Shown here piece after piece: positions 1,540 through 32,921 of a stretch of DNA of 34,817 bases. The notes under the pieces are model-generated. The model did not search any database. It was not told the origin of the DNA and was given only the letters and a program-made list of their open reading frames with translations. The position numbers were made by a program, and so were the translations under genes. Positions within the stretch are counted from its first letter, which is position 1. Each line of letters opens with the position of its first letter. The DNA is from Muribaculaceae bacterium (lineage in GTDB: Bacteria; Bacteroidota; Bacteroidia; Bacteroidales; Muribaculaceae): contig JAIEBK010000036.1 in NCBI GenBank assembly GCA_029070945.1, positions 9,571-44,387 of the forward strand. Reading direction: 5' to 3'.

Positions 1540-1541
1540 CT

Positions 1542-3405: not shown

Positions 3406-3419
3406 ATTGAGAATTGAGA
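3406..3419. repeat. Two-copy 7-bp repeat (ATTGAGA) upstream of batD
   Basis: Two exact ATTGAGA copies lie in tandem between the batC stop and the batD start. This is the shortest tract of the period-7 family and would not be called on its own. Confidence 0.4.
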
Positions 3420-3424
3420 GAGAA

Positions 3425-4204: not shown

Positions 4205-4219
4205 AACCAAACTTTATTA

Positions 4220-5260: not shown

Positions 5261-6237
5261 TACGGTATTCTTCTAATTATTGTATAACGTAACAGAAGCG
5301 AGAGAGCCAGAGCCGAGAAGGCAAGCCACAGCCACGGCATAAACTCCTCCTGAGTGAGAGTAACTGAATTGACGTCGATGCTTGATTTCTCAAGAGAATC
5401 GATTTCTTCGAACACCTGCTTCAGTACGCGCTCGTCTTTCGCCCGAAAATATTTTCCTCCTGTGAGCTTGGCCATATTCTTAAGGAGAGGCTCATCTATC
5501 TTGGTCTCAAGCGTTGTGGTAGAAAAACCATAAGGATCGGCAATCTGCATCTTTCCGTTTGTTCCGACTCCGATCGTATAGATCTTTATGCCCTTCTGCT
5601 TGGCAATCTGAGCCGCCGTCACCGGAGGCACATCGCCGGCATTATTACTACCGTCGGTAAGTAATATGATACTCTTCGACTTAGCCTTTCCCTGAGATAT
5701 ACGGTTGATCGCACTTGTAAGGCCGTCGCCGATGGCAGTACCGTCATTGAGATCGCCCATATCAACGTTTGCGATCGCATTGATCAATGCGGCCCTGTCA
5801 TTGGTAAGAGGCATCAGGGAAAGAGATTCTCCAGCGAATACTACAAGCCCCATATTATCGTTCGGACGGGAATTTACAAAAGAGGTAGCCACATCCTTAG
5901 CAGCGATAAAACGATTCGGCTTGAAGTCAGTAGCAGACATCGATCCCGAAATATCCATAGCCAGAATAATGTCGGTGCCGAGCACACGTGAATTCTTAAG
6001 GCTGTCATGGCTCTGAGGACGGGCAAGTGCGACGATGATGGCCGCGATACAGAGCAATCTGAGACCAAAACACAAGTGCATCACCCACACCTTCCATGAA
6101 TTTCCAAACCTTAGAAAAGGCTGAAGTGTCGATACCCCAATGGATGGATTGGCATTACGATGCTTCATCACATACCATACGATCAAGGGGACAAGCACAA
6201 GCAGAAGCCAGAGCATCGCAGGATGAAGGAATTTCAT
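5260..6237 (-). CDS. batA: BatA: von Willebrand A-domain membrane protein
   Basis: 325 aa, the usual BatA size. Membrane helices at about 5-23 and 51-73 precede a vWA domain with a canonical MIDAS (DISGS, D95-S99) followed by SATDFKPNRF, a typical BatA continuation. The TAIGDGL loop and ILLTDG strand complete the site. A C-terminal helix (about 302-320) closes the protein. The metal-binding face should lie in the same compartment as that of BatB. Its start overlaps the stop of the upstream gene (ATGA), and its stop overlaps the batB start. Confidence 0.93.
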   Translation of the reverse strand: MKFLHPAMLWLLLVLVPLIVWYVMKHRNANPSIGVSTLQPFLRFGNSWKVWVMHLCFGLRLLCIAAIIVALARPQSHDSLKNSRVLGTDIILAMDISGSMSATDFKPNRFIAAKDVATSFVNSRPNDNMGLVVFAGESLSLMPLTNDRAALINAIANVDMGDLNDGTAIGDGLTSAINRISQGKAKSKSIILLTDGSNNAGDVPPVTAAQIAKQKGIKIYTIGVGTNGKMQIADPYGFSTTTLETKIDEPLLKNMAKLTGGKYFRAKDERVLKQVFEEIDSLEKSSIDVNSVTLTQEEFMPWLWLAFSALALSLLLRYTIIRRIP

Positions 6238-7265
6238 CGCTCACCTCCTTTCTTAACTTCCGATGCTGTCACGGAGGAATCGGAATTCCTGTCGTCAGCT
6301 ATAGGGTCAGGATCTTTTTCTATAGTTTCCTTAACAAAATTGACGGCGTTGTCATATGCCTCCACATTATCGGCCGGAAGAGGACGTACCTTAGCAAACT
6401 TCACGAAGTCGGCTACATCAAGAATCTTACGGACGTAACCACGATGCTCTCTGACATCCGCCTGATCGGCAAGTGTCTGCATGATCTGACGAGAAGTCAT
6501 CTCCATTGCGTTTATTCCGAAACGAGCATACAGATAATCGCGCAGAATATCCGTAAGCTGAGTGAAATATTCCTTTTCCATGCCGTTTTCCCAAAGGTTC
6601 TTGGCCTTCAGTTCCTCCAATCGCGTGAGTGCGACAGTCCACGGTTTAGGCTGAGGCCTGTCAGGTAGAGTTATGAACTTACCGGTCTTCCTGTACTTAC
6701 GGCCAAAATATACGGCAGCTACTACAGCTGCTATAAGAAGTATCCACAGCCACCATAAATCATAAAGCCAGTCAGGCATCCAATCCCAAAACGATCTGTC
6801 AGAAGGATCAGAAATATCCCGGTAATCAGAGATTGCGTCATTCTCACCTACTTTCACGGGAACCACGGTAAGCTCAACTTCGTTTGATCCTACAGAATCC
6901 GCAGCGGTAAGATAGACAAAAGGAGGCAACCGATAGAATCCTGAATCAAAGACCTGTACAGGAACGCGAAGACGCTCTATGATTCGGCCACCTTCACGCC
7001 TTACAGTATCGACCACCGGGCTTCCAAGCTCAACAGTATCATTGAAAAGTGTCACATAACCTCCCGGCATCACTTTATTGAAAAGAGGAAACACTCCCTG
7101 AGTAGATTCATCGCGATCCACAATGAGCCGGAGAGTATCCACACGCCCCATCATGATCGAAGCAGAATCAAGCGACGCTGTTACCTTCACCGCGGAAGAT
7201 ACAGGCATCGACAGCGCCAGGGCCATTAAGATTAAAGCCAAATATTTTCGAAATGACTGGATCAT
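6234..7265 (-). CDS. Bat-operon membrane protein of unknown function (343 aa)
   Basis: A protein conserved at this position between DUF58 and batA in Bacteroidetes; it resembles DUF4381/BatD-type proteins but I cannot name it securely. It has a signal peptide (about 1-25) and a beta-rich periplasmic domain (about 28-138). One tryptophan-rich transmembrane helix follows (about 169-187, preceded by WMPDWLYDLWWLWI), then a cytoplasmic helical domain of about 140 residues (KAKNLWENGMEKEYFTQLTD, YARFGINAMEMTSRQIM). The C-terminal domain resembles the cytoplasmic tail of BatD in composition, suggesting a shared partner such as the MoxR ATPase (inference). It overlaps batA by four bases. Confidence 0.8.
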   Translation of the reverse strand: MIQSFRKYLALILMALALSMPVSSAVKVTASLDSASIMMGRVDTLRLIVDRDESTQGVFPLFNKVMPGGYVTLFNDTVELGSPVVDTVRREGGRIIERLRVPVQVFDSGFYRLPPFVYLTAADSVGSNEVELTVVPVKVGENDAISDYRDISDPSDRSFWDWMPDWLYDLWWLWILLIAAVVAAVYFGRKYRKTGKFITLPDRPQPKPWTVALTRLEELKAKNLWENGMEKEYFTQLTDILRDYLYARFGINAMEMTSRQIMQTLADQADVREHRGYVRKILDVADFVKFAKVRPLPADNVEAYDNAVNFVKETIEKDPDPIADDRNSDSSVTASEVKKGGER

Positions 7266-7282
7266 ATTTTAAAATTCTAAAT

Positions 7283-8152
7283 TCAACCGCGACGTCGGAA
7301 AAGAGCTATAAGAGCTTTAACGTAGTCTTCGTCGGTGGCCACAGACACAGAATCCACTCCACACCGAGCAGTGGTCGAGGAGAAATACTGCTGGCGGTCA
7401 TACCAGGCCTTATCGTAAGCCTGCCTTACACGTCTGGAAGATGTATCGAGCCAGATGTCGCTTCCTGTCTCCAGATCGCGAAGACGAACAAGACCGACAT
7501 CAGGCATTTTCGCATCACGCTTGTCATAGACCTGAATCGCAGCCACATCATGCTTATGGTTTGCGATCGAAAGCGATTTGAAATAATCATGAGAGTCTAT
7601 GAAATCGCTGAGAAGAAAGGCCGAACAACGTTTTTTCAACGCATTGGTCATAAATACAAGCGGTGCGTTCAGATCCGTGGCCCTATGTTCCGGCTTAAAG
7701 TCAATTATCTCACGGATAATGAAAAGAATATGCTTACGCCCCTTTTGAGGAGGAATGAATTTCTCTACCTTGTCGCTAAAAAAAATCACTCCGACCTTGT
7801 CATTATTCTGAATAGACGAAAATGCAAGAGTGGCGGCAATCTCAGCTATAAACTCGCGCTTCACATCGCCTACGGCACCAAAATCGCGACTTCCGCTGAC
7901 ATCGACAAGAAGCATCACAGTAAGCTCACGCTCCTCCTCATACACCTTGATATACGGTTTATTATGTCTGGCCGTGACGTTCCAATCTATATCGCGCACG
8001 TCATCGCCAGGCTGATATTCCCTGACTTCGGAAAACATCATGCCCCTACCCTTGAAAGCGGTGTGGTACTCTCCCGCAAAAATATTGTTGGAGAGTCCAC
8101 GCGACTTTATTTCAATTTTCCTAACTTTCTTGAGAAGTTCCTTGGCATCCAT
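7283..8152 (-). CDS. DUF58 family protein
   Basis: 289 aa, soluble. The DUF58 signature SEVREYQPGDDVRDIDWNVTAR is at about 41-62, followed by a vWA-like core with DVSGS at 84-88. DUF58 proteins are almost always encoded next to MoxR ATPases, as here, and are thought to be partners or substrates of the ATPase, acting in assembly of complexes with metal-binding vWA proteins. The 17-bp gap to the next gene and the 50-bp gap to moxR place it second in the operon. A period-7 repeat fills most of that 50-bp gap, starting only a few bases upstream of the ATG. Confidence 0.92.
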   Translation of the reverse strand: MDAKELLKKVRKIEIKSRGLSNNIFAGEYHTAFKGRGMMFSEVREYQPGDDVRDIDWNVTARHNKPYIKVYEEERELTVMLLVDVSGSRDFGAVGDVKREFIAEIAATLAFSSIQNNDKVGVIFFSDKVEKFIPPQKGRKHILFIIREIIDFKPEHRATDLNAPLVFMTNALKKRCSAFLLSDFIDSHDYFKSLSIANHKHDVAAIQVYDKRDAKMPDVGLVRLRDLETGSDIWLDTSSRRVRQAYDKAWYDRQQYFSSTTARCGVDSVSVATDEDYVKALIALFRRRG

Positions 8153-8156
8153 TATG

Positions 8157-8191
8157 CGTTTTGCGTTATGCGTTGAACGTTATCCGTCGGT
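8157..8191. repeat. 7-bp tandem repeat upstream of the DUF58 gene
   Basis: CGT recurs at 8157, 8164, 8171, 8178 and 8185, exactly 7 bp apart (CGTTTTG, CGTTATG, CGTTGAA, CGTTATC, CGTCGGT). The tract ends 4 bp from the DUF58 start codon. Confidence 0.75.
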
Positions 8192-8202
8192 GTCAGATCA
8201 GA

Positions 8203-9198
8203 TCAAGGCACCTGAACCTTGTCAAGAATACTTGAAATAATCTCATCGGCAGAAATATTGTTGGCCTCTGCTTCGTATGTGAGTCCGATACGATGGCGCA
8301 TCACATCATGGCAGACGGCACGGACATCTTCCGGAATGACGTATCCACGACCCTGAAGGAATGCATAAGCCCTCGAAGCGACTGCAAGAGATATAGACGC
8401 ACGCGGCGAAGCTCCATACGCTATAATTCCTTCAAGATCCTTCAGTCCGGCAGCCTCGGGATTACGTGTCGCGAAAACTATGTCGACGATATAATTCTCG
8501 ATCTTCTCATCAATATAGATCTCACGAACGAGTTTCTGAATCTCAAGCACATCCTGTGTAGAGACAACAGCCCTCACATCATCAAGGACACCACGGATGT
8601 TCTGGCGAATGATCATTTTCTCCTCCTGCTTGTTGGGATAACCGATTATCACCTTAAGAAGGAAACGGTCTGTCTGCGCCTCGGGAAGAGGATATGTACC
8701 TTCCTGTTCGATAGGGTTCTGTGTAGCCATGACAAGGAAAGGCCGGTCAAGAGGGAAAGTCTGCTCTCCGATTGTCACCTGACGCTCCTGCATAGCCTCG
8801 AGCAATGCGCTCTGCACTTTAGCGGGAGCTCGGTTGATCTCGTCGGCAAGAACAAAGTTGGCGAAAATAGGACCTTTCTTTACTTCGAACTGCTCTTTCT
8901 TAACGCTGTAGATGAGAGTACCGATCACATCGGCAGGAAGAAGATCCGGAGTGAACTGGATACGTGAATACTTAGCATCCACAAGATTCGAGAGGGTCTT
9001 GATAGCAAGTGTCTTAGCCAGACCGGGCACACCCTCAAGAAGAACGTGACCATTGCAGAGAAGAGCGATAAGAAGCGAATCGACAAGGTGCTTCTGTCCG
9101 ACTATACGCTGATCCATACCGTTGCGGATCATACTCAGGAAATTGCTCTTCGCAGCAATGCGATCATTGAGTTCACGAATATTAACTGTCTGTTCCAT
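8203..9198 (-). CDS. moxR: MoxR-family AAA+ ATPase
   Basis: 331 aa, the standard MoxR length. The Walker A motif GVPGLAKT is at 56-63 and Walker B VLADEINR at about 116-123. The sensor region MATQNPIEQEGTYPLPEAQTDRF is the hallmark of the MoxR family. It hydrolyses ATP and is thought to act as a chaperone for vWA-domain proteins, three of which (DUF58, BatA, BatB) follow in the same operon. It is the first gene of the bat unit; a well-matched promoter lies about 90-120 bp upstream. Confidence 0.96.
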   Translation of the reverse strand: MEQTVNIRELNDRIAAKSNFLSMIRNGMDQRIVGQKHLVDSLLIALLCNGHVLLEGVPGLAKTLAIKTLSNLVDAKYSRIQFTPDLLPADVIGTLIYSVKKEQFEVKKGPIFANFVLADEINRAPAKVQSALLEAMQERQVTIGEQTFPLDRPFLVMATQNPIEQEGTYPLPEAQTDRFLLKVIIGYPNKQEEKMIIRQNIRGVLDDVRAVVSTQDVLEIQKLVREIYIDEKIENYIVDIVFATRNPEAAGLKDLEGIIAYGASPRASISLAVASRAYAFLQGRGYVIPEDVRAVCHDVMRHRIGLTYEAEANNISADEIISSILDKVQVP

Positions 9199-20431: not shown

Positions 20432-20598
20432 GTGTCACGCTGCAATATGTCATAATAGGCATCATTCTTATGTCGTCAGCCATATGGATTGCCGTCAGGA
20501 TTAAGAGAAAGAAGCAAGGAAAAGACTCCGTATGCTGCGGATGCAGCCTCCATGACTCATGCAGACAAAAGAAAAAAATTAAAGTCGGCGGTCATTGA
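20428..20598 (+). CDS. 56-aa Cys-rich single-pass membrane protein (FeoB-associated-like)
   Basis: This gene is too short for the ORF track. It starts at 20428 and shares ATGA with the topB stop. The product is one transmembrane helix (about 7-23, YVIIGIILMSSAIWIAV), a basic stretch (RIKRKKQGK), then a cysteine cluster (CCGCSLHDSC) and a basic tail. Layout and motif resemble the FeoB-associated Cys-rich membrane proteins, small partners of the ferrous iron transporter. No feoA or feoB is near, so an iron role is inference only. The stop codon lies in the loop of the terminator hairpin. Coupling to topB suggests it is truly translated. Confidence 0.72.
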   Translation: MSVTLQYVIIGIILMSSAIWIAVRIKRKKQGKDSVCCGCSLHDSCRQKKKIKVGGH

Positions 20599-20610
20599 AT
20601 CGCCGACTTT
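20581..20610. terminator. Bidirectional intrinsic terminator between convergent operons
   Basis: The arms AAAGTCGGCG and CGCCGACTTT are perfect 10-bp inverted repeats around a 10-nt loop. U-rich sequence follows on both strands: TTTTCATCTTTATT on plus, and TTTAATTTTTTTC on minus. It ends both the mazG-topB unit and the five-gene export operon. Confidence 0.9.
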
Positions 20611-20625
20611 TCATCTTTATTCAAG

Positions 20626-22512
20626 TCACTGGAACATGGAATTACTGTAGATTCCGAAATCTCGGTTACTTTTCGGAAGCATAGGAGTTAGATCGGGATT
20701 GCGTTCCGGTTGCCATGTCCGGATCTTTATGACTGGCTTGTCAGCATCGTTGAGGTCAACAAAGAGGAAGAGATAACCCTGGTCTCCGTAATGCTCGGAA
20801 TAATAATCCTGCCTGATCTGTATGCCAAACGTATCTCCGCCATAGGCTGCCTTTTGCACGTCGTTGTCTGAAAAGTTTATGTTCACATATTCATTACTCT
20901 CGAAACATCGTTTCAACTGATCTATGTAATCAGATTTACTTTTCCGAGCATACTCATATTTAGGAACGATACTAATACCAAATCCATCTCCGGGCATTTT
21001 CTTCACCTGCTCGAGCTTATGGCCTACTATGATGTACGCGTTCTCGTCGAAGATGCTGTTAATATAGTCAAGTCGTTTGAGTGCAAATGCTGTCTTGTAG
21101 TTTTCAAGAAAAGTAACGATTACCATCTTTACGGAGTCACTCCATGCACCGACACCCTGTTCGAAGATATCCTTCCTTGCAGACTCACCAAGCCCGAACG
21201 CAACGCTCTCTATCTTCTTTTCGGGTGAGAAAGTGAAGGTCACATCTTCTATGAAAGTGCGCTTGTTGTTCTTGAAGTCGAAACGCATTGGAATACATCT
21301 TGCCACTACTCTTTCACCGAACGGATAGAATCCGACTTCAGGACTGCCGAGTACGTAAGCTTGTCCGTAACCGAGAAGTTTATCGAACATGTCAAGTCCA
21401 TCTTCCGTGAAATAAGACGGATCAGGCTTATAGCTCTTGTCAATAACTGATTTCAGCACTTTGTCAATTACCGCCTGATATTCTTTTGCGTCTTTTTTGT
21501 CAAGCTTAGTCATTTTCTCACGTTTACCTATGGATGCTAAAGAATTGAATTCCTTTTTCGCCTCTCTATCAGGCTTTAAAGCCTTGCCCTCAACACCTAT
21601 GATCTTTCTTGCTTCCGGAAATTCTTGGGGTTTGAAATCTCCGATTATCATCTCCAGCTCCTTATCACTCCTACTGGCTTCCTTGTAACTTGTCTCTATC
21701 ACAAGCATTACGTCTTCAACCGTCATATCTTCCGGGAAAGAAAGTTGTCCAAGCCCTCCCTTGGCACTATTGATAGAGGAAGTAGTCTTTCCATTCCAAT
21801 AGGTGAAGTCAATACCGGCCGCAGGCTTATCCTTATACTTGAAGAGCACGTCTACCGTATTATCATCGCCTTTCTTAGCCACAGACACCTCGACATCCTT
21901 AAGGATCTCCGTCATACGGCTGGGAATCCAGTTGATAAGTAACCGGTCATCTCCGTCAATTTTCATTTTGACTCCACCGGGATACTGAAGTGAATGAAGA
22001 AGCACATAGGCCCAATTAAGAAAACGGAGCGCATTGTCTACTCTTCCCTTCTGTTCGGCACGCAGTGATTCTCGGACATAATCTTCCACTCGGTCCTGAC
22101 GGTGAGCAAATATCTTGTCGAGTTCAGATCGGAGCATGTATTTTAGCTGGTAATACCTACCGTTCTTGTCTCGCCAGTTTAATGTCTGGGTATTGTTTAC
22201 CGTGACTTGAGAATAGGAGTTCATGATCATGCTCACGTCAGACTTCAATTCCAGCTTACCGTTGTTGTTAATTTCATGTTCCAGTATATTGAATGAGGAA
22301 TTGACAGTCGTACCGATTTTGCCAAGGAGGCTTTGCAAGGCATTCCGGTCGGCGTCGGCGGGGGTAGCACCCTCGCCTTCGCCGTAAATGAAATCCGTCA
22401 TTCCTTTTATCACCTCAACTTTTTGCAACACCTCTTTTTTCTGGGCTGACAGAGAGACCTGACAGAGCAATCCTGCCATGAGAAATAAAATCAGTCTAAA
22501 TGAACTTTTCAT
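20626..22512 (-). CDS. Secreted LPP20-like protein of unknown function (628 aa)
   Basis: Not securely recognised. A signal peptide (about 1-23, ending SLSAQ) precedes an N-terminal domain with GEGEGATPADADRNALQSL (44-62), the pattern of LPP20/FlgP-like domains in which A..DA...AL helices follow a Gly-rich strand. It continues with QVTVNNT and a helical segment around LRAEQKGRVDNALRFLNWAYVL. No lipobox Cys is seen, so it is probably a periplasmic or secreted soluble protein. The C-terminal half (ARCIPMRFDFKNNKRTFIEDVTF..., FLFVDLNDADKPVIKIRTWQPE) is unfamiliar. Its ATG overlaps the stop of the giant repeat protein (ATGA), so the two are translationally coupled and probably act together. Confidence 0.7.
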   Translation of the reverse strand: MKSSFRLILFLMAGLLCQVSLSAQKKEVLQKVEVIKGMTDFIYGEGEGATPADADRNALQSLLGKIGTTVNSSFNILEHEINNNGKLELKSDVSMIMNSYSQVTVNNTQTLNWRDKNGRYYQLKYMLRSELDKIFAHRQDRVEDYVRESLRAEQKGRVDNALRFLNWAYVLLHSLQYPGGVKMKIDGDDRLLINWIPSRMTEILKDVEVSVAKKGDDNTVDVLFKYKDKPAAGIDFTYWNGKTTSSINSAKGGLGQLSFPEDMTVEDVMLVIETSYKEASRSDKELEMIIGDFKPQEFPEARKIIGVEGKALKPDREAKKEFNSLASIGKREKMTKLDKKDAKEYQAVIDKVLKSVIDKSYKPDPSYFTEDGLDMFDKLLGYGQAYVLGSPEVGFYPFGERVVARCIPMRFDFKNNKRTFIEDVTFTFSPEKKIESVAFGLGESARKDIFEQGVGAWSDSVKMVIVTFLENYKTAFALKRLDYINSIFDENAYIIVGHKLEQVKKMPGDGFGISIVPKYEYARKSKSDYIDQLKRCFESNEYVNINFSDNDVQKAAYGGDTFGIQIRQDYYSEHYGDQGYLFLFVDLNDADKPVIKIRTWQPERNPDLTPMLPKSNRDFGIYSNSMFQ

Positions 22513-25500
22513 CCTTTTACCAATATTTTTGTGGTTCCTACGAAATAAATACCCGGAGTGATATCATAGACTCTTTCAGTCTCTCCTGCATTTACATCTA
22601 CTATACGGATCAGCTGTCCTACCATGTCATATATCCTAAGCTTCATTGCGATCGAACTCCGTATGCATATTGAATATTTTTCACTCCAGATACAGGTGCC
22701 GTAATTATCAATTAGGCCCTCAACCGAAGACTGATCGAATACCGGTATGGCTCTCACACCCTGACTTTCAACATAGCATTCAAAAGGTTCGATATCCCTT
22801 TCATTGGATATAAAGATACCGCCGGGTTGATATTCCTGATTCATATAAGTAGTTGGAGCCTCATTGATAGTCAGTTTTCCCTCCTCCTTGCAGATCCAAC
22901 TATAGTTGCCGGATACAGAACGTCCAACTCCGAAAGAATACTGCATATCTATTTCAGAAGGAGTCATCGGAACCGTAACAACCTTAGAACTAAACACTAC
23001 ATCACTATTAACTACGAATTCACTTGCATAGTAAGGATGATTAGGCATAGCTATCAGATATGGAGTATTAGCGAATATTGAAGTCTCCGCCTTCCATTCC
23101 GTATCATTCGCACCGAACAACCAGAAGGGGCATTCTCCCTTATTAGTGTCGACATCATCTCCGAACGGCTTAAGCACTCTTCCCGCACTTTCTATTTTCT
23201 GGATATTGAAAGGAACGACCATTGTCTCCCATCCGGATCCGAATCCGCCGATCTGGGTTTGCTTGGTAAAGGCTCGGGTAAATGAAATATTCTCAGCAGT
23301 AAACTCTTTATGTGCATGAAAAGGCAATCCATGACGGAGAGTTATGCTTTCCGCACGCCCGGTCCCGGTGATAACTACATTCTTAACCACTCCATTTGAA
23401 TTCGCCACAGCAGCTGATGCGTTGTTGGCGTTTCTAACGTAAAGTAGAAGGTTGGAGTTTTCAAGTCCGCTTAGTAGGGTTGCAGGAACAAGATCATCGC
23501 TCGTTATCTCCAAAGCACATAAAGAAGAGTTTGCAGATCCGAAGATATTGCTACCGATTCGGCTCATCTGCTTTGGTAGAACAATGGATCTAAAATTACC
23601 CGCATCTAATGCACCGGTAGGGATATAAGAATCAGTAACATTCATAAGATCAAGATGCCTGAGATTCGTGAATGTTCTCAGGAACTCATAGTCTCCCGAG
23701 TCTTCCGTAGATAATCCAATCAACGGACCATGCAGGGTCAAGGAAGGAATGTTCGACTTGTCGGGACACCATCCGAATGCATCTTTCAAGGCACCGGGTC
23801 GCGATGTATAAGCATCTGTCTCGTCAGCATAATACTCGGGTGTAAATTCCATTACTTCTGAGTCAGCTGCATCAGTACGCAAAGCTATTGCTCTGATCTG
23901 AGTGAGCCCTTCCATATCTATCTTACCTGTGTACATGCTTCCCTCGCGGATATCCGTGGTTGATTGACCTAAGACATAGCGTATCATAGAACCTTCTTCA
24001 GCTTTCAGAGTAAGATAGCGACCGTCAAATACATCCTTCTCAGGACGCTGGCATCTTACATATCCAATCGGACATGATTCGGCCTCAGCCGGAATAAGTT
24101 CACCTTCAAAGGCTACAGCTCTGACCGTACAGCTTTCTGACACTGTAAACGGATTCTCATAAACCATTGATGTAGCGTCCGGTCGTGAACCGTCAGTAGT
24201 ATATCTTACAGTCTGGGATGATTTCTTTTTTATGGTGACAGTGAATAGTTCCGCGGATATCTGAGGAATATCAGTATGACCGAGACGAACTTTATCCGAA
24301 GGTATATAACCTTTTTTGTATGTATAAGCATTAACTATACTGTTATATGCAACCTTTACGCGTCTTGGATTATTATCCTCCGGTTTTAGTTCAGTATTAT
24401 TTTCATCAGTAAACCTTATTTCAACATTACTATCATCATGTTCTGCTATGACATACCCATCTGAATATCTAATTGTCGGCTCTTTTAAAACATAGTCGCT
24501 TTTGAAGAAGTCAAAGGATTCCGATCTTCTGTAGCCTTCCGCCTCAGCATATGTATAGATAGTCCGTGCTTCCCTGATGTCAATACCATCTGGCATTGAG
24601 TTTACATCATATACTTGCCTATTGTAATCAGTAATACCTTGATTAAGGCTATAATATATGACAGCATTTGGTGTTTTTGAGATCAGTACCAGATACTCTT
24701 TACTTATATCGACGATTTCCGGTTTCTCTACTTGATCCATCACCTTAACCGCATCTGCTTCAGCCGGAATCATACCTTCCTTAAAAGCAGTAGCACGCAA
24801 TATGCATGCTGAAGTCTCGAATTTTTTATCGTTATACTTAGAGCACCTTTTAGTAGGTAAACTGCCGTCCGTAGTATAGTAGACCTCCCCATCTGCATGT
24901 TCTATCTCCACAGTATAGCCATCGACTTTGATAACCGGCTTTGATACAGGAATCATAATTGCTAAATTCGAATCGTTATATCCTCTCTTTCTGGCATATG
25001 CCTTAACTGTTGAATTGTATGCAGGGATAAAACGTAGATGGTTAGAAGCAATCGTATCAAACGTTAACTCCTGAACAGGCTGAACATCTATGACAATTTC
25101 GACATCTTCCATATTGTGGGTCACATGGAGATAATCATCAGCCTCATACCTCATTATAGGACTGACAAGATCATATTCGTTTTTGTTAACAATAACCCTA
25201 TCGGAATCGGTATAACCATCTGCCTGAACCCATGTAGTGATGATGTTCTCTCCATTAAAATCTATTCCTTCCGGATGCTCCTCTGTCTTGTATTCCAATG
25301 CTGATGCAGGGTCGAAGTTACCTAAATTATATTTTATAACACCTCCCGGCATTTCCGATGAAATAACCAAGCGCGAGTTGTCATAGTGCGTCTTTGGCTT
25401 CAAAGCCTTCACCCAATCGGTATAGTGCGACACCACTACAGAACGTACTTTACCATCGGTCTCCGCGTATGCCTGAAGAGTCTGATTTCCACTTAAAGGT

Positions 25501-27347
25501 CCACCGGGAAGTTCGATCCAACTTTCGCCACAATCCTTCCATTCATCTGCAACAACCTCCTCGCCATAAGTACTTGTTTTCTTTCCATTAACAATACGAT
25601 ATTTAGCATTGCCTTCCGGCACAGAAAGCTGCACATAGTTTTTGATAGCACTTACATCACCCATATTTTCACCTTCCGTCTTGGTGCCTGACAGTATGGG
25701 GGCTTGAGTGACATAGTCATTATGGCGTATAGTAACAGACAGAATTTCAGAATCAGCAAGCAGATTCTTTGTGCTAAAGGCCTTCAATGAAGTACCGTCT
25801 TCAATCACTATAGGATTTCCGTCATAAGTTACTCTCTGCCCGGCATCGTAAAGAAGTTTATCGCTAATTTCGCCCTTACCTAAGACATAGTATGTAGTGA
25901 CACCCTCAACGCTATTGGTAAATATGAACTCATTCAATTCTTTACCTCCGTAGAATTCGAGTTGAGGCTTGGGAAGACGCATGTTTTGATCACTGATGGT
26001 CATATCCGCTACTTCAGATGGTTTTAAATCATCGTATTCAGCGATTGCCATTACCCGTGTAAACTTCTCGAGCTTGATCGGACCATTATATTCAAGTCTC
26101 TTGTCATTCCCGCTGATAGGCTGATTTCCATCAAGAGTATAATAGATTTTCGCTCTCTGATCTGCACATGAAATGGTAACCTCCCACGTGGCACTGTTGA
26201 ATGAAATTACCGGCTTTGGAAGTTTGTTGTCTTCATACATTATCCTCAGAAAGACATCGTCATCACGATTATACGCATCTTTCTTTGTATCATATAAGAT
26301 AGCAACAAACTGTCGATTACTAAGGCTGGAATCCGTTAACTTTGTAGTTTCCCCTTTTTTAAGCAAGAACGTCTTGACCAAAGCGAGATTTGAGTCCTTA
26401 GACGTATCGACTCTGTATAATCCCATACTGCAATCCTGCGATGCCTTCAGATAAAATGTCGATATTTCGCCGCATGTAAACCTATATGCCTTGAAGTTAT
26501 TGTTGTCAGTCTTTTTGAAGGAATAATCGCAAGGAACTGCAACTGAATCCGTAAGAAGTTTAGTTGTCACAGAATGCTCATATTCCGAGAGAATTGGCAT
26601 ACCCCATTCATTATTCTCGGAAAGCATCTGAAAAGAAGTGACGAACTTACCGGCAGCAGACATAGTTATAGATTTCTCTCCTGTACGATAGGTGAATTCA
26701 CGTGAATTTACTGTTCCCAACTCAGGATTATCCGGCATTTCTGTTGTTAAAGTAAAGTCTGAGTTATTAGGAACGATTCCGCTTGTCAATATATTATTGT
26801 TTATCAGAACACGATAAGACACAGCAATACTCGAAGACTTATCGGGAGCTGAAGGTATAGAGAAATACCTCATCATCATGCTACCCCATTGATTATATTT
26901 ATTGGCCATACGGTATTGCAGTGCGTGGCCCCCTTCAGAAAGTTCGTTTACATTGACTTCCAGGGAATTTGATTGACCGCTGTATGGTAGGGTATTCTTC
27001 ACCCTTGATGGTTCGTCGTTATCAAACCAATACTGAATCAAAACCGGTTCTGTCGCTTCCTTTGGATCTATATGAGGTGTTGTAGATGGCACAACGAAAT
27101 AGCTCGTCATGATACTACCCCATTTCTTATCCTTATCGGCCATACGGAAGTTTACAGCGTGCCCACCCTCGGAAAGACCACCTGCGTCTATAATCAATTG
27201 GTTTGACTGCGCACTATAGAGATGGGTATTTATTAATCTATATGTCTCGTCGTTGTCAAACCAATATTGATAAAAAGCGGGGGCCGGCGAGGATGCAAGA
27301 GCACTTAATGATACCAGCAAGACACCTGTCTTTAGAAATGTCTTCAT
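22509..27347 (-). CDS. Giant surface repeat protein (1612 aa), CHB_HEX_C/Fn3-associated type
   Basis: I start at the internal ATG at 27347 (MKTFLKTGVLLVSLSALASS, a signal peptide); the track's 27386 start adds 13 residues before the signal and overlaps the upstream gene. Residues about 28-86 and 106-166 form a duplicated unit (YWFDNDE ... LSEGGHA ... WGS). From about 400 to 1130 there are roughly nine divergent chitobiase C-terminal/Fn3-associated-like repeats (IYYTLDGNQP, VYYTTDGSLP, VRYTTDGSRP, followed by AxAFxxGxxPAEA). A leucine-rich/BspA-like stretch follows (LTNLRHLDLMNVTDSYIP). The last about 70 residues (LRIYDMVGQLIRIVDV, ITPGIYFVGTTK) look like a type IX-type A sorting domain. It is likely a surface adhesin or binding protein; no catalytic motif is seen. 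Confidence 0.8.
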   Translation of the reverse strand: MKTFLKTGVLLVSLSALASSPAPAFYQYWFDNDETYRLINTHLYSAQSNQLIIDAGGLSEGGHAVNFRMADKDKKWGSIMTSYFVVPSTTPHIDPKEATEPVLIQYWFDNDEPSRVKNTLPYSGQSNSLEVNVNELSEGGHALQYRMANKYNQWGSMMMRYFSIPSAPDKSSSIAVSYRVLINNNILTSGIVPNNSDFTLTTEMPDNPELGTVNSREFTYRTGEKSITMSAAGKFVTSFQMLSENNEWGMPILSEYEHSVTTKLLTDSVAVPCDYSFKKTDNNNFKAYRFTCGEISTFYLKASQDCSMGLYRVDTSKDSNLALVKTFLLKKGETTKLTDSSLSNRQFVAILYDTKKDAYNRDDDVFLRIMYEDNKLPKPVISFNSATWEVTISCADQRAKIYYTLDGNQPISGNDKRLEYNGPIKLEKFTRVMAIAEYDDLKPSEVADMTISDQNMRLPKPQLEFYGGKELNEFIFTNSVEGVTTYYVLGKGEISDKLLYDAGQRVTYDGNPIVIEDGTSLKAFSTKNLLADSEILSVTIRHNDYVTQAPILSGTKTEGENMGDVSAIKNYVQLSVPEGNAKYRIVNGKKTSTYGEEVVADEWKDCGESWIELPGGPLSGNQTLQAYAETDGKVRSVVVSHYTDWVKALKPKTHYDNSRLVISSEMPGGVIKYNLGNFDPASALEYKTEEHPEGIDFNGENIITTWVQADGYTDSDRVIVNKNEYDLVSPIMRYEADDYLHVTHNMEDVEIVIDVQPVQELTFDTIASNHLRFIPAYNSTVKAYARKRGYNDSNLAIMIPVSKPVIKVDGYTVEIEHADGEVYYTTDGSLPTKRCSKYNDKKFETSACILRATAFKEGMIPAEADAVKVMDQVEKPEIVDISKEYLVLISKTPNAVIYYSLNQGITDYNRQVYDVNSMPDGIDIREARTIYTYAEAEGYRRSESFDFFKSDYVLKEPTIRYSDGYVIAEHDDSNVEIRFTDENNTELKPEDNNPRRVKVAYNSIVNAYTYKKGYIPSDKVRLGHTDIPQISAELFTVTIKKKSSQTVRYTTDGSRPDATSMVYENPFTVSESCTVRAVAFEGELIPAEAESCPIGYVRCQRPEKDVFDGRYLTLKAEEGSMIRYVLGQSTTDIREGSMYTGKIDMEGLTQIRAIALRTDAADSEVMEFTPEYYADETDAYTSRPGALKDAFGWCPDKSNIPSLTLHGPLIGLSTEDSGDYEFLRTFTNLRHLDLMNVTDSYIPTGALDAGNFRSIVLPKQMSRIGSNIFGSANSSLCALEITSDDLVPATLLSGLENSNLLLYVRNANNASAAVANSNGVVKNVVITGTGRAESITLRHGLPFHAHKEFTAENISFTRAFTKQTQIGGFGSGWETMVVPFNIQKIESAGRVLKPFGDDVDTNKGECPFWLFGANDTEWKAETSIFANTPYLIAMPNHPYYASEFVVNSDVVFSSKVVTVPMTPSEIDMQYSFGVGRSVSGNYSWICKEEGKLTINEAPTTYMNQEYQPGGIFISNERDIEPFECYVESQGVRAIPVFDQSSVEGLIDNYGTCIWSEKYSICIRSSIAMKLRIYDMVGQLIRIVDVNAGETERVYDITPGIYFVGTTKILVKG

Positions 27348-27382
27348 TCTAATAAAATTAAATAAGTAAAAACATTCACTCC

Positions 27383-28342
27383 TCATTCGCCTATCCGCTT
27401 CACCGTAATGGTCAGCTTTTTATTTAATGAGTCATATTCAACATAGCTTTTTGGTTTGCCGGTATTGGAATCAATCGAAGTATCAGGAGTCGGATACTGG
27501 GGAAATAGAGTATAAGGAGTTTGACCACCCAATGTTCCATACACAGTTCCGTCATCACATTTTCCAAGAGATGATGGATTATCATCTACTCTGTCGAGAT
27601 CAGAATTTATACGAAAGCAATTTTCAAGTACACATTGGGTGCCAGAAAAGTCAGTTTCATACAGAGAATATTTAATCAATCCAATAACATCTGAACTAAT
27701 TCGGCTAATCGAACAATGTTCTAAAGTTGCAACCCCAGAACTGTCACACCCTCCCTCCAATACAGCAATCTTAGTATTGTTAATAGTTGCTTTTTTAGTA
27801 GAAAAGTTTTTAAGAGACAATTGATAGAAACTACATCTATCAATAATCAAATTATCCACTACAAATGTCTTCTCTTGACTATTTCCTTTGTCAATATACC
27901 CACTTTTAACATTTACAAACTTTAAATCTCTGAGATCGGAAGAAGGCATTATACGACGATCTGATGGAAATTCGATGCCTTCAAAACTAAAGACTTTCTT
28001 CATGTGATCTAATGAGGGATCAATATTAAGAAAGATATACTTATTTCCACTTAGTTTGGTTCCTCCTTCTTGAGCTCCAGCACCAATGAATGTTAATGGC
28101 TTATTTATCTGACACCATTGATAATTATTATTATATGTTGGAAGAACACTAATATCAATAGTTCCAGAACCGAAATAAACAGTATCATTGACTTCAGCAT
28201 CTTCAATTACTTTGTGAAGTTGATCATATGAATAGAACTTCAGTTCGCTTCCCTTATTATAGGATAGTACTATGCCGGCATTCTGTGCCATAGCTGTCAT
28301 GACCATTATGATAGTCGCAAAGAGAGTAAGAAAATGTTTCAT
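27383..28342 (-). CDS. Secreted right-handed beta-helix-like protein (319 aa)
   Basis: A signal peptide (about 1-20, ending MTAMAQ) is followed by a pectate-lyase-like opening: DQLHKVIEDAEVNDTVYFGSGTIDIS and KPLTFIGAG, the usual first rungs of parallel beta-helix proteins. Short strand-turn repeats follow (DNLIIDRCSFYQLSL, KKATINNTKIAVLEGG, VATLEHCSISRISS, QCVLENCFRIN). No lyase active-site motif is recognised, so a structural or carbohydrate-binding role is as likely as catalysis. The C-terminal tail (NKKLTITVKRIGE) is short and carries no sorting domain. It is third in the export operon, 39 bp after the BACON lipoprotein and 35 bp before the giant protein. Its DNA looks more AT-rich than the flanking housekeeping genes. 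Confidence 0.75.
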   Translation of the reverse strand: MKHFLTLFATIIMVMTAMAQNAGIVLSYNKGSELKFYSYDQLHKVIEDAEVNDTVYFGSGTIDISVLPTYNNNYQWCQINKPLTFIGAGAQEGGTKLSGNKYIFLNIDPSLDHMKKVFSFEGIEFPSDRRIMPSSDLRDLKFVNVKSGYIDKGNSQEKTFVVDNLIIDRCSFYQLSLKNFSTKKATINNTKIAVLEGGCDSSGVATLEHCSISRISSDVIGLIKYSLYETDFSGTQCVLENCFRINSDLDRVDDNPSSLGKCDDGTVYGTLGGQTPYTLFPQYPTPDTSIDSNTGKPKSYVEYDSLNKKLTITVKRIGE

Positions 28343-28381
28343 ATTCTTTTTTTTGTTATGATTGTTATTTTTATTTGTTTC

Positions 28382-29800
28382 TTATGCACCAACATTGGGT
28401 ATATTATTATCTATGTTTCCGGGAGTCATACCTTTCGTCTTGAACTTACCCGTGTAAGTAGTAATGTTATTTTCAACCTTTCCATACTCCGGTGGAAGGG
28501 TCATGCCTTTCACCATGATTTCATATTCGTATTCATGATTGGGATCCAGACCATCAACCTTTAGAGCATATTTCCAATTACCAGCATCCGAGTATTCAGG
28601 AATTCCGTTGATCGTTTTGCCGTTGACGCTCATTGTAACAGTTGCGATACGGTCAGATCCGAGAGGCTCTACATCAGACATGACGGTGAATGAAATAGTA
28701 GCGGAATTAAGATCGGTAACGACGGAAACTCCGTTATTTTCTGCATCCACTATAAAAACTCCTTGATAAATCATATTCTCAGGTTTCAATCCCGTTAAGA
28801 ACTCACGGAATTCTCCTACGTAGACTCCAACCTCATTCTCCACAAAGGGAACTATTTTGAAGTACGAATTTTCATCCAAATTCCTAAGTGAAAACTTATA
28901 GTTGCCGTTCTTCAAATACTCATTATTATCCGGACGGAGTGTAGAGATCAATATCTCTGATCCTGCTTGAACTTTGTAAATTTTTATACCGCAATCCTTT
29001 ACCGGAGATCTGGAACTGTATTCCAAAGTCAGGTCAGCGTCCACAACTCCAATCGGATCAATCCGGCAGGCCAAATTCTGCGGAAGCGTTCCAGCGTCCT
29101 GAGTCAAAATAAAAGGAAGGGGGAGATTCGACAAAGTCATCTCAGTAGAAGGTTTCATTTGAAGACGAATGATACGCTCTTTATCGGTATAGTTCGGAGA
29201 CCATGAAAAGCGATACTCTATCGGGGTGTTACCATCATTACCTTCGCCCGACAGGCCAGGAGTGACGGAAAGCCAGGAGATGTCACCGATATTACCGTCG
29301 GCATCATGAGGCAAAACCGCTATCTCCCAGTTTAGGGAACTGTAAGCCGTCATTATAACCGATCCACCTTCTTCCGGTACCGGCTCCAACGAGGGAGTCC
29401 TTTCAACGAAAAAAGTAGCATTTGACTGCGTAAGGGATACCTTGACAGGTTCCATCTCGAAATTAACAGGTGAGACTATCAGATCCGCAGTGTAACTGTT
29501 CTGAGTGGAATTAGGTCTACAAGTCACTGTAACTGTTCCGGTTCCCTTGCCAAATAAGGGAGAAACAGAAAACTGCCCGGCATTGTTATTGGTCATTGAA
29601 ACCTCCCATTTAGCTATGGAACATATCTGAATGTCAAAGCTCTCTCCTTCAGGCTTAAAGGAAAGCTGGCTCAGGCTGAGGTTTAATATCTCGTTTTCCT
29701 TTGGCTTGTCACCGACGGTAAACTCATCCTCAGCCGTATCACATCCCGTGAAAGCCAAAAGAGCATAAAAACAGATAGTGATGTTTGTCAGTTTGTTCAT
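28382..29800 (-). CDS. BACON-domain surface lipoprotein (472 aa)
   Basis: Lipobox LAFTGC with Cys20, followed by DTAEDE; an acidic cluster just after the Cys resembles the export signal of Bacteroidetes surface lipoproteins, so outer-leaflet display is likely (inference). Two BACON-like immunoglobulin domains follow (about 42-125, with SFKPEGESFDIQICSIAKWEV, and about 130-235, with VPEEGGSVIMTAYSSLNWEIAV). Then come two FN3-like modules (about 245-335 and 345-455, the latter ending YTGKFKTKGM). BACON domains often bind glycans or mucin. It lies 24 bp after the PEGA gene and is second in the operon. Confidence 0.82.
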   Translation of the reverse strand: MNKLTNITICFYALLAFTGCDTAEDEFTVGDKPKENEILNLSLSQLSFKPEGESFDIQICSIAKWEVSMTNNNAGQFSVSPLFGKGTGTVTVTCRPNSTQNSYTADLIVSPVNFEMEPVKVSLTQSNATFFVERTPSLEPVPEEGGSVIMTAYSSLNWEIAVLPHDADGNIGDISWLSVTPGLSGEGNDGNTPIEYRFSWSPNYTDKERIIRLQMKPSTEMTLSNLPLPFILTQDAGTLPQNLACRIDPIGVVDADLTLEYSSRSPVKDCGIKIYKVQAGSEILISTLRPDNNEYLKNGNYKFSLRNLDENSYFKIVPFVENEVGVYVGEFREFLTGLKPENMIYQGVFIVDAENNGVSVVTDLNSATISFTVMSDVEPLGSDRIATVTMSVNGKTINGIPEYSDAGNWKYALKVDGLDPNHEYEYEIMVKGMTLPPEYGKVENNITTYTGKFKTKGMTPGNIDNNIPNVGA

Positions 29801-29824
29801 AATATGTTATGGAAAATTAATCGT

Positions 29825-31375
29825 TTAGAGACTGAAGCTGAAAGAAAGTCCCGCGCTAATATAAAAACCACCCTTTGAAAATCCACCGTGCGAGGAAATG
29901 TCGGAAAAGAGTTGGTTGACTACTACCGGAACAGCATATTCAGGCTCAATAAAGATACCGAAAAAAGGTATTGGCTTGAATATCAGACGGGCTCCTACCG
30001 TAATATCATGACACATCGCTCCGTTACCGTGGCTGCCACCACGAAGGCGCTGCATCATGTATCCTACGCGCGGTGTCAGGCCAAGACGGTTTAGGAAGCT
30101 GAACTGATATCCGGCTTTTGCCGTTAGCTCATCCATAGTATATGTGCAGCTGTCCTCATAAGATCCCGAAGCATCGTTATCATACCAATATACCTCACCG
30201 CTACGACCGAATCCAAGTGTATACCCAAATTCAAGGTTGATATTGCTACAGAATCCTCCAATCCTTGCAGTGCCCCCATAAGCCGGACCATACGTGATAG
30301 TAAGGTCACCGTAGACGGAATTAGGTCTGATATACTGAATTCTCTGTAGAATGACGGTATCAACCGTCTCAGTATTAGCCACCACACGGAATGTCCGTCT
30401 GATGGGTTCATAACCTTTCTTTTGGAAAACATAGGTGCGTGTACCTATAGGAAGGAGTTTACTCAGACGGTTCTCTGCCACTATCGTGTCTCCTTCAGAT
30501 ATCTTGGTTCCGGAAGCCGGATTAACTTCGATTGAAAGATATCCACGGTAAGGAACCGGTGCCGGACATTCCACAAACGTCGGCTTCCCGGCTGTAGCAA
30601 TGAAGCTAACTATCTGAGGTTCGCAGTTCTCCTTCTTTATTTCAATGGAATAAGTTCCTCCAAGCAGTCGGCGCGACCATTCTCCTACTCCGACCTTATT
30701 ACCATCGAAATAGATGTCGGCATTACCTGGAACTGTGACAGTCACATCTGAATATTTCCTGCTCTCATCCTCCATCGGGAGTTCGAAACGTGATGGGCCA
30801 GACTGTGTAACGTTTATTATATCCCTATAGAGCATCATTCCCTGCTGAGCACGCACTTCATGCTCTCCATATCCTAAGTAAATCTCGTGGGGACTGACAC
30901 CGACTGAGTCCCCATCTACATATATGGAAGCATAACGAACACTTGCAACAAGATTGACTACCTTTCCTTCAGTCGTGAGTTGCATGGAATAAGTCTTGCC
31001 AGCTTGGATCTCTTCTCCAAACGCATATCTCAATGGTGAGTAGTTGCGATTGGTGATCTGTATTGATTGGGAACGTGCGGGAATATAGAGCCATATCTGG
31101 CCCGGTTTATTTTCCCTTGCCACTATTCCCATTACTCCATTGTCGAAATATGTCTGATTCTCATTAAGGTTTGTATAGATTTTGATGAGAGCAGCAGTAT
31201 TTCCGTTCTGATCTTTCTTCATCGTCGTGCTGTTGATAGCGGTCTGGTCGGTCGGAAGCAACTTGAAATCACGGACAAGCATGTCAGCACTATAGGCCGA
31301 CAATGTAGTAGCGAGCGATATAAAAAATATTATTATGGCGTATGAGAATAGCCGTCTGAAAAAAACTCCGGTCAT
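29825..31375 (-). CDS. PEGA-domain outer-membrane beta-barrel protein (516 aa)
   Basis: First gene of the export operon. A signal peptide (about 1-30) precedes an N-terminal beta domain (about 31-140). Three PEGA-like modules follow: ASIYVDGDSVGVSPHEIYL, ADIYFDGNKVGVGEWSRRLLGG, and LSIEVNPASGTKI...IGTRTYVFQKKGYEPIRR. The C-terminal about 165 residues alternate polar and aromatic residues like an outer-membrane barrel (LTITYGPAYGG, INLEFGYTLGFG, FFGIFIEPEYAVPV) and end in FYISAGLSFSFSL. PEGA modules are thought to contact surface layers or cell wall. A role as outer-membrane anchor or scaffold for the other exported proteins is inference. No promoter octamer is seen in the 150 bp directly upstream. 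Confidence 0.8.
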   Translation of the reverse strand: MTGVFFRRLFSYAIIIFFISLATTLSAYSADMLVRDFKLLPTDQTAINSTTMKKDQNGNTAALIKIYTNLNENQTYFDNGVMGIVARENKPGQIWLYIPARSQSIQITNRNYSPLRYAFGEEIQAGKTYSMQLTTEGKVVNLVASVRYASIYVDGDSVGVSPHEIYLGYGEHEVRAQQGMMLYRDIINVTQSGPSRFELPMEDESRKYSDVTVTVPGNADIYFDGNKVGVGEWSRRLLGGTYSIEIKKENCEPQIVSFIATAGKPTFVECPAPVPYRGYLSIEVNPASGTKISEGDTIVAENRLSKLLPIGTRTYVFQKKGYEPIRRTFRVVANTETVDTVILQRIQYIRPNSVYGDLTITYGPAYGGTARIGGFCSNINLEFGYTLGFGRSGEVYWYDNDASGSYEDSCTYTMDELTAKAGYQFSFLNRLGLTPRVGYMMQRLRGGSHGNGAMCHDITVGARLIFKPIPFFGIFIEPEYAVPVVVNQLFSDISSHGGFSKGGFYISAGLSFSFSL

Positions 31376-31527
31376 ATGATGATTCTGATGTGGATTTCGT
31401 TTTATGGTTTGAAATTAACATATTGCTCCAACAAAGGGAGTTATGGCATCAAGTATTAGTTTATTAAAAGGAATAATATTTCATTCAAAATTCAAAGGCC
31501 TCCCGGCTCGCATGGTTGGCATTGGGT
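31376..31527. other. Leader region of the export operon, no gene seen
   Basis: AT-rich sequence between the candidate RNA's U-tract and the PEGA gene start. I found no ORF, no TAnnTTTG octamer on the minus strand and no strong hairpin, apart from a short GCC-GGGA-GGC loop near 31499-31508. The operon's promoter may therefore lie at 31881 with readthrough of the RNA element. Confidence 0.4.
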
Positions 31528-31629
31528 AAAAAATAAAAGCGTGAGAGCCAATACTCTGTTGTCTGTCCCACACTACGAGGCTCTGGTACTGCCCATCTCA
31601 GTAGAACAGACAACGCAGAAGCCTCACGC
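31528..31629 (-). terminator. Long terminal hairpin with U-tract (end of candidate RNA)
   Basis: The outer stem pairs 31539-31545 with 31623-31629 (7 bp) and the inner stem pairs 31558-31566 with 31606-31614 (9 bp). A further CTAC-GAG/CTC-GTAG helix lies inside. On the minus strand it is followed at once by TTTTATTTTTT, as in an intrinsic terminator. If it terminates fully, the PEGA operon needs its own promoter. Confidence 0.6.
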
Positions 31630-31875
31630 AGGATTATGTATAGCAACGCCACAGTGCGACGCTCTCGCGCCGCCGCAACGGAATGTATACATCCCTTACA
31701 GGCATCTACCGTTGTCTCATTCTTGACTGAGATAGAAATTTACCAGATTTCGTAGTGTCAAGAAAGAGCGTCAAGTAAACGCTTCCATATGTCATTTGCA
31801 GAGGATTGCGACAATTTTCAGCAATCCATCATCCCTCCCGCGTGGCCCAGACCGGGCTTCCGCAGTGCGGTCTGC
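31528..31875 (-). ncRNA. Candidate structured RNA of about 350 nt (unknown class)
   Basis: Read on the minus strand, this stretch contains several perfect helices in order. They are CAGACCG/CGGTCTG (31868-31874 with 31848-31854), GGATTGC/GCAATCC (31821-31827 with 31803-31809), and CAACGG/CCGTTG (31709-31714 with 31676-31681). A 7-bp GC-rich stem on a GAGA tetraloop follows (31656-31662/31667-31673). It ends with a long hairpin of GCGTGAG/CTCACGC and GTTGTCTGT/ACAGACAAC stems, followed by TTTTATTTTTT. A -7 octamer (TAATTTTG) sits just upstream. The hallmarks of RNase P, tmRNA and SRP RNA are absent. A multicopy non-coding mobile element is the main alternative. Confidence 0.55.
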
Positions 31876-31880
31876 AAATG

Positions 31881-31888
31881 CAAAATTA
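31881..31888 (-). promoter_or_regulatory. -7 box (TAATTTTG) for the candidate RNA
   Basis: The coding-strand sequence is TAATTTTGCATTTGCAGACC, placing a start near 31873-31876, exactly where the first helix begins. No -33 TTTG is seen at 19-21 bp, so this is a half match supported by the RNA geometry. Confidence 0.45.
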
Positions 31889-32000
31889 ATAAAAAGAATC
31901 GATTATTCCTATTTTTTCTATATATTTTATTTTTCTATTTACTTTTCAACAGATGTAATAATGATCAGACAGTACTGGCAACTATGCTTAAGTCGTTACC

Positions 32001-32921
32001 TTAGTGTCTTTTGGCTTTGGCGTAATTGACGAGGATGACGCCGGCTACTATTATGACGAAAGAGACGGGCTGATACCAATGGAACGAGTCCATCTTTGCA
32101 GCGATGGCAACTACCGTCGTTATCACCGGGACGAGATACTGATAGAAAGCAAGTACCTCACTCCCCACCATCTTGATGGCCGGAGGAGTTACAAGATAAC
32201 AGTAGACCGTAGGGAATAGAACTATAAAACCGAGTATTAACCATGGCATTGCTTTGGCATGAGTGAATATCGGCATGTCGGTGTGCATCGTGAAAATAAG
32301 CGGAGAGGCGAGTATCGCTGTGAAAAGGAACACCCACTTCATGAGGCTTATAGTGCCATATCGTTTTGACGGGCCTTCGAGTATCACGAGATAGATGGCA
32401 TATGTGACGGCACATACCACTGCGTAAACGTCACCGATCAAACGTCCGGAATCGACTTTTCCTCCACTCAGGATCACCATGATCGCACCGCCAAGAGCGA
32501 CCACCATACCGACAATCTCAAGCATAGAGACATGCTCATGCTTGAATATGGCATTGATCACTACTACAAGTATCGGCTGGAATGTAAGGATAATGGCTAT
32601 ATCAATAGGCGACGCTGTATTGAAGGCGAGAGAAAATACATAGACGAATCCGAGCATCATGAGTGCCGAGGCCCACAAAAGCTTCCAGTCGCCGTGCTGT
32701 ATCTTTTCCTTCTTTACGAATAGTGACAGAATCCATATAATGACCGTGGCTCCGAATATTCGGGCAAGAGCCACTCCTGAAGCGGAAATCCAGTCAGGAA
32801 TAAGGGCTTTGTTGGCCGGATCGTTAAGGCCCCAGCATATGGCGGCGGACAATGCAAGAATATTGCCCCAGATCATAGCGGAAACGCGGCTCTTCTTAGC
32901 CGCAGGAAGTGTGTTGTTCAT
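32001..32921 (-). CDS. EamA-family (DMT superfamily) transporter
   Basis: 306 aa, ten predicted membrane helices in two EamA repeats. The first half opens WGNILALSAAICWGLNDPANKAL and contains PIDIAIILTFQPILVVVINAIF...EIVGMVVALGGAIMVILSGG. The second opens GRLIGDVYAVVCAVTYAIYLVILEG and ends VPVITTVVAIAAKMDSFHWYQPVSFVIIVAGVILVNYAKAKRH. EamA proteins export or exchange amino acids, nucleobases and other metabolites; the substrate cannot be read from sequence. It is 46 bp downstream of the BASS transporter gene and probably shares its transcript with the nucleosidase. Confidence 0.9.
   Translation of the reverse strand: MNNTLPAAKKSRVSAMIWGNILALSAAICWGLNDPANKALIPDWISASGVALARIFGATVIIWILSLFVKKEKIQHGDWKLLWASALMMLGFVYVFSLAFNTASPIDIAIILTFQPILVVVINAIFKHEHVSMLEIVGMVVALGGAIMVILSGGKVDSGRLIGDVYAVVCAVTYAIYLVILEGPSKRYGTISLMKWVFLFTAILASPLIFTMHTDMPIFTHAKAMPWLILGFIVLFPTVYCYLVTPPAIKMVGSEVLAFYQYLVPVITTVVAIAAKMDSFHWYQPVSFVIIVAGVILVNYAKAKRH

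Follow-up and report, generated by a model that had tools for sequence, protein, structure and literature searches.

The giant gene and its operon

What is encoded by the 1612-residue reading frame of this locus, and how might a chain of such a composition have been assembled? We considered these questions within a 34,817-nucleotide stretch of DNA from a Muribaculaceae bacterium (hereafter the window), comparing it with related loci (L numbers) and genomes (G numbers). The host genome assembly comprises 2.6 Mb in 189 contigs, with an estimated completeness of 82.8%. The reading frame noted earlier on sequence grounds is a real one and lies on the minus strand, running from 27347 to 22509. An in-frame ATG at 27386, which overlaps the stop of the preceding gene, is a possible alternative start; we favour 27347 because the closest relative of the giant, at locus L092, begins at the equivalent residue. 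The two proteins are 68% identical over 1521 aa, and from a dN/dS of about 0.10 (with dS saturated or near saturation) we deduced that the giant gene is under purifying selection, as judged from this pairwise comparison. General scans with Pfam and NCBIfam models revealed in the giant neither a catalytic domain nor a match to the TANFOR domain. A match to the anti-phage DUF499 model NF042962 (36 bits against a cut-off of 1200 bits) was rejected as a cross-match of the repeats.

The giant is the fourth of five genes on the same strand, separated by short gaps or overlaps, in the order PEGA protein, BACON-type lipoprotein, 319-aa protein, giant and LPP20-like protein (Table 1). The BACON assignment of the lipoprotein in the window falls below the cut-off, and its counterpart at L067 matches BACON at an E-value of 8e-45. 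Elsewhere in the window, at 688-9198, inspection of the translations indicated a BatA/BatB/BatD-like cluster, an ordinary Bacteroidota locus containing two von Willebrand-type proteins, TPR proteins, a DUF58-like protein and a MoxR-like ATPase.

Table 1. Positions of the operon genes, the parts of the giant protein and a neighbouring hairpin in the window
Feature	Position	Strand	Remarks
PEGA protein, 516 aa	29825..31375	minus	Pfam; barrel-like C-terminal end by inspection
BACON-type lipoprotein, 472 aa	28382..29800	minus	BACON 20 bits, cut-off 25; lipobox by inspection
Secreted protein, 319 aa	27383..28342	minus	beta-helix-like by eye; no Pfam match
Giant reading frame	22509..27347	minus	1612 aa; signal-peptide-like N-terminus at about residues 1-19, by inspection
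YWFDND head unit 1	27069..27281	minus	residues 23-93; self-alignment and head profile
YWFDND head unit 2	26832..27047	minus	residues 101-172; self-alignment and head profile
Linker region	26223..26831	minus	residues 173-375; no Pfam match; second half PPC-like only by eye
Module A1, clear CHB_HEX_C	25977..26222	minus	residues 376-457; 57 bits
Module B1, degenerate	25710..25976	minus	residues 458-546; 12.9 bits
Module C1, doubtful member	25407..25709	minus	residues 547-647; 4.1 bits, under shuffle maximum; weakest part of model
Module B2, degenerate	25170..25406	minus	residues 648-726; 12.3 bits
Module C2, degenerate	24948..25169	minus	residues 727-800; 8.7 bits, partial
Module A2, clear (YYTTDGSLP)	24732..24947	minus	residues 801-872; 33.9 bits
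Module B3, degenerate	24489..24731	minus	residues 873-953; 24.2 bits; pairs with B2
Module C3, degenerate	24273..24488	minus	residues 954-1025; 12.9 bits; pairs with C2
Module A3, clear (RYTTDGSRP)	24054..24272	minus	residues 1026-1098; 44.4 bits; pairs with A2
Module E, last repeat	23835..24053	minus	residues 1099-1171; 33.6 bits; 8ayr match
BspA-type LRR region	23358..23834	minus	residues 1172-1330; profile and Foldseek
Conserved domain of about 200 aa, GWET..LPF...PYLI.MPN (WET-LPF)	22752..23357	minus	residues 1331-1532
T9SS type A-like C-terminal domain	22512..22751	minus	residues 1533-1612; seven strands in model
LPP20-like / NTF2-like partner, 628 aa	20626..22512	minus	4kzs E 1.5e-4; 4-bp overlap with stop of giant
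Terminator-like hairpin, 12-bp stem	20581..20610		between topB and operon end; such sites in the scan not above shuffles

A super-repeat of three modules

How is the long middle part of the giant organised? Pfam recognised CHB_HEX_C and Fn3_assoc (PF13290/PF13287) in four stretches at E-values of 2e-39 and 7e-41, and the PF13290 profile scored 133.7 bits over the giant against a cut-off of 22. Because a profile trained on the giant's own modules would find them by construction, we built the module profile only from loci L094, L119, L113, L104 and L100 and compared its scores with those of 200 shuffles of the region, the best of which reached 5.8 bits. Where the earlier note had estimated about nine CHB_HEX_C-like repeats, we counted ten Ig/FnIII-like modules between residues 376 and 1171, nine of which exceed the best shuffle, with C1 as the exception. 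The proposed division into clear and degenerate repeats stands: six of the seven degenerate modules lie above the shuffle maximum, C1 again falling below it, and by their sequence scores the degenerate modules, C1 apart, are related by ancestry to the clear ones. Relatives that have only one repeat still retain module E, the last of the series.

The order of the modules, A1 B1 C1 B2 C2 A2 B3 C3 A3 E, contradicts the earlier suggestion that clear and degenerate repeats alternate in a two-domain super-repeat. Self-comparison did reveal the periodicity that had been expected, with a period of three modules rather than two, in that the mean similarity between modules was 54 at an offset of three, compared with 31.5 at an offset of two and 29.8 at an offset of one. 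From the non-alternating order and this peak we therefore deduced that, on the similarity of its modules, the super-repeat is one of three modules (B-C-A, about 225 aa). Residues 660-866 and 886-1091 align accordingly (z of about 34), and the giant of the window holds only two full B-C-A copies. The peak at an offset of three is found in the window and in its close relatives L094, L093 and L100; in the more distant relatives L119, L113 and L104 the peak lies at an offset of two, and a two-domain super-repeat exists there.

Might the degenerate segments have a different fold? An AlphaFold model of residues 373-1175, calculated from eight aligned sequences, was all-beta throughout at a mean pLDDT of 85.5, the degenerate segments included (mostly 82-94 by block, with C1 as the weak spot); its pTM of 0.37 means that it informs on the fold of the modules and not on their arrangement or the overall shape. 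A Foldseek search of this model against the PDB returned strings of Ig/FnIII domains, with GhpA of Aureispira first, and we take these matches to speak for the type of fold that is predicted, making no claim on descent. We also considered a recent tandem expansion at the DNA level and rejected it. Tandem Repeats Finder, with a longest period of 500 bp, detected no such repeats in the giants of the window, L093 and L094, and the copies of the modules have diverged, so that the repeats look old by these measures.

Heads, base and tail

The reported duplication at the N-terminus was borne out by the alignment of residues 23-88 with residues 101-166 over 66 aa, at a score of 201 (shuffle mean 24, z of about 43), and the DNA of the two copies shows 69% identity over 192 bp (E 1e-12). 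By this alignment the YWFDND heads are homologous. Head units vary in number among the giants: the head profile found two in the window, one each in L092 and L093, five each in L094 and L103, three in L100 and two weaker ones in G131. Of the 295 genomes searched in the order, 50 carry the unit, which matched no Pfam family; on these profile searches the module is widespread and has yet to receive a Pfam name.

At the other end of the chain, the leucine-rich stretch proved to match BspA-type LRR structures (best profile E-value 6e-23, to 4gt6). Foldseek placed it with the LRR protein BT_1240 (3sb4, probability 1.00), and Pfam LRR_5 did not match the single giant sequence. Between this region and the tail lies a conserved domain, here called WET-LPF, which, like the operon, did not figure in the earlier note. 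An alignment of 16 sequences showed 19 of its positions to be invariant, and searches of Pfam and the PDB found no relative of it. A model of the C-terminal core (residues 1097-1612, covering module E, the LRR, WET-LPF and the tail) reached a pLDDT of 91.3 and a pTM of 0.85, and the fold predicted for WET-LPF is a confident one. A domain with such a prediction and with no relative in Pfam or the PDB presents a defined target for structural study.

We noted that the tail bears several features of a type A T9SS signal. First, type A cargo is marked by a TIGR04183/PF18962 domain at the very C-terminus, and the sorting-type tail named at the outset was recovered by TIGR04183 in a six-frame search at a borderline 24.7 bits (cut-off 23); the whole-protein scan gave 21.1 bits, under that cut-off, and the giants of two relatives scored 28.4 and 27.0 bits, above it. 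Second, according to PMC10202324 type A domains have an Ig-like fold of seven strands and close with a motif that contains lysine; the giant ends in KILVKG, and the C-terminal core model has seven strands at its residues 455-514 (mean pLDDT 91, blocks 85-91), an observation that concerns the number of strands and not their topology. Third, the tail aligns with those of further T9SS-type proteins that this genome encodes, and it has in common with them SSVEGL before the tail and the lysine-bearing end. The genome encodes a complete SprA (2603 bits) and a PorU (876 bits). As modelled, the tail fits a T9SS signal of type A. In the distant cassette giants the tail is shorter.

An accessory cassette with variable giants

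How might the operon have come to this site? In two genus-mates, G152 and G157 (L192 and L193), the 11.4-kb cassette that occupies 20564-32007 of the window is absent from the topB-EamA junction, topB (94% identical to that of the window) and the EamA gene being adjacent at about 210-220 bp. The GC content is 0.365-0.445 across the cassette and 0.46-0.49 around it. Absence at the same site in two genus-mates, together with the lower GC content, fits an accessory unit that has probably moved horizontally.

A first scan of genomes with the giant itself as the query found no relative. An alignment of the LPP20-like protein was scanned against one genome per species for 84,980 species and yielded 313 relatives, 80 of which were kept; these occur mainly in Muribaculaceae and in rumen Prevotella/Bacteroidaceae, the closest being mostly labelled Muribaculaceae. 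At 29 of the 63 loci that could be evaluated, the gene that immediately precedes the LPP20-like gene on the same strand encodes a giant with the conserved C-terminal part; the neighbours at other LPP loci are of other kinds, and some contain domains of the FGE-sulfatase-like or FISUMP type. The giants of the relatives have 484-3329 aa, 0-34 repeats and 0-5 heads; several of the long ones run off contig ends, and for these the sizes are lower bounds. At L104, L105, L119, L121 and L124 they have about 3300 aa or more (incomplete at the end), and that of L119 contains 34 repeats or more, arranged with a period of two modules. The five genes recur in unchanged order in G131, where the giant, of 782 aa, carries heads and no repeats. 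In G003 (L066 10517-16001) the cassette follows immediately after gldL-gldM-gldN, which encode the motor and ring of the T9SS; it lacks the 319-aa gene, and its giant, of 1007 aa, has one repeat and a head of another type.

Is the conserved C-terminal part specific to this cassette? We rejected this possibility for WET-LPF: of the 12 loci reached through WET-LPF or the C-terminal core alone, without recourse to the LPP gene, a single one has a neighbour of the LPP20 type. From this distribution we conclude that the giants of the cassette come from a family of proteins with a wider occurrence. Two further arrangements were seen among the relatives. A block of Ser/Thr kinase, PP2C, FHA and caspase-like (C14) genes adjoins the cassette in G131 (L067 10351-15806) and at L126 (7061-12867). 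We discarded this block as a part of the system, PP2C homologues occurring in 64 of 149 genomes of the family, mostly elsewhere, and none of them being found in this genome. Loci L075 (G000:C129, 2444-13109), L076 and L077 hold a shorter cassette, in which fimbrillin-like (Mfa_like_1) genes lie beside LPP and PEGA genes of half length and genes for an LRR protein and a Ser/Thr kinase; one fimbrillin-like gene of L076 contains an M64 peptidase domain. Nothing on the cassette was found in the open-access papers searched, and within these it appears to be undescribed.

A putative surface fibre

What might such a protein do? We consider it most probable, at roughly 60%, that the giant is a T9SS-exported, surface-attached fibre of evolvable length, an adhesin or ligand-binding arm; its export, for which there is good support, and its anchoring, heads-outward orientation and binding role are what we infer from the parts described above. 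The signal-like N-terminus suggests export through Sec. The type A-like C-terminal domain would then be recognised for passage through SprA, both domain and translocon being encoded in the genome, and PorU, the sortase found there, would cut off the tail and join the chain to surface polysaccharide. The LRR and WET-LPF block would then be at the end near the cell, followed by a stalk made of the Ig/FnIII-like modules and by the YWFDND heads as the far tip; we propose this orientation because the tail is at the C-terminus. Stalk length and tip would evolve by gain and loss of modules while base and tail are kept; the variable length of the giants (484-3329 aa) with a conserved base argues for this reading. 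So do the lack of a catalytic domain in the Pfam and NCBIfam scans, the purifying selection and the place of the G003 cassette behind gld genes, whereas the sub-threshold tail score of the whole-protein scan, the shorter tails of distant cassette giants and the occurrence of WET-LPF outside the cassette weigh against it. The tip would presumably bind a ligand, with host mucus, glycans and other bacteria as candidate targets, and we regard the proteins that the LPP20-like, PEGA and lipoprotein genes of the operon encode as putative surface partners of the fibre. We speculate, and only tentatively, that the LPP20-like, PEGA-barrel and lipoprotein genes constitute a dedicated and undescribed apparatus for surface assembly or anchoring, which would act with the T9SS and accept interchangeable giant cargoes. 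If so, one type of locus would give many gut and rumen Bacteroidales fibres of differing length and tip.

CHB_HEX_C domains are known from glycoside hydrolases, the modules match 8ayr and 6q63, and a neighbouring gene carries BACON, a putative binding domain; the giant might accordingly be a glycan-capture protein for nutrition, the modules of which would bind polysaccharide and feed uptake systems rather than anchor the cell. However, inspection of the operon and the window revealed no SusC/SusD or hydrolase gene, and a repeat count that ranges from 0 to 34 is more like that of a spacer than of a fixed binding site, so that we regard this explanation as rather unlikely. Still less probable is a structural, S-layer-like coat without a specific ligand. 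An array of Ig-like modules would suit scaffolding, and S-layer proteins of Tannerella are exported by the T9SS (PMC4175972); nevertheless, the gene is accessory, being missing from two genus-mates at the same site, and a regular lattice could hardly tolerate the several-fold differences in size among relatives. That the T9SS delivers the giant as a polymorphic toxin or contact weapon is very improbable. Large proteins of such a kind exist in Bacteroidetes (PMC7073777), but the C-terminus of the giant is conserved and its N-terminus variable, the reverse of the swapping of toxin tips, no toxin domain was matched in Pfam or NCBIfam, and there is no obvious immunity gene.

Comparison with known systems

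Most of what is known of giant T9SS proteins comes from gliding bacteria and from pathogens of the mouth. The cassette recurs in Bacteroidales of gut and rumen, and its giants, in which stalk and tip vary freely while base and tail stay fixed, would provide a natural series for asking how the length and tip of a fibre decide what such commensals attach to.

How does the giant compare with proteins that have already been described? BspA of Tannerella forsythia has a reported role in adherence (PMC11169705), and the BspA-type LRR in a surface protein, here a predicted one, is a feature in common with BspA and BspA-like proteins. In the giant, however, the LRR is short and near the base, and the chain consists mostly of YWFDND heads and CHB_HEX_C-like modules, together with an unannotated conserved domain. 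RemA, with a type A tail, and SprB, with a type B tail, are gliding adhesins carried to the surface by the T9SS (PMC10202324), and the giant would resemble them in its putative export and adhesion. Unlike that of SprB, its tail is type A-like, and gliding is not implied; the operon contains no PorP/SprF gene of the kind expected for an SprB-type gliding adhesin. With GhpA of Aureispira the giant has in common a string of Ig/FnIII-like beta-domains in a giant Bacteroidota protein (Foldseek E-values of 5e-16 for 9fly and 4e-15 for 9flp), but these matches are generic multi-domain ones, with 10% identity and an rmsd of about 40 over the whole, from which we claim no common descent. Finally, the clear modules are members of PF13290/PF13287 (CHB_HEX_C_1, Fn3_assoc), whereas the degenerate modules lack the YYTxDGSxP motif and sit in a three-module super-repeat. 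As a protein, the giant represents a new architecture among the large T9SS surface proteins, a kind already known.
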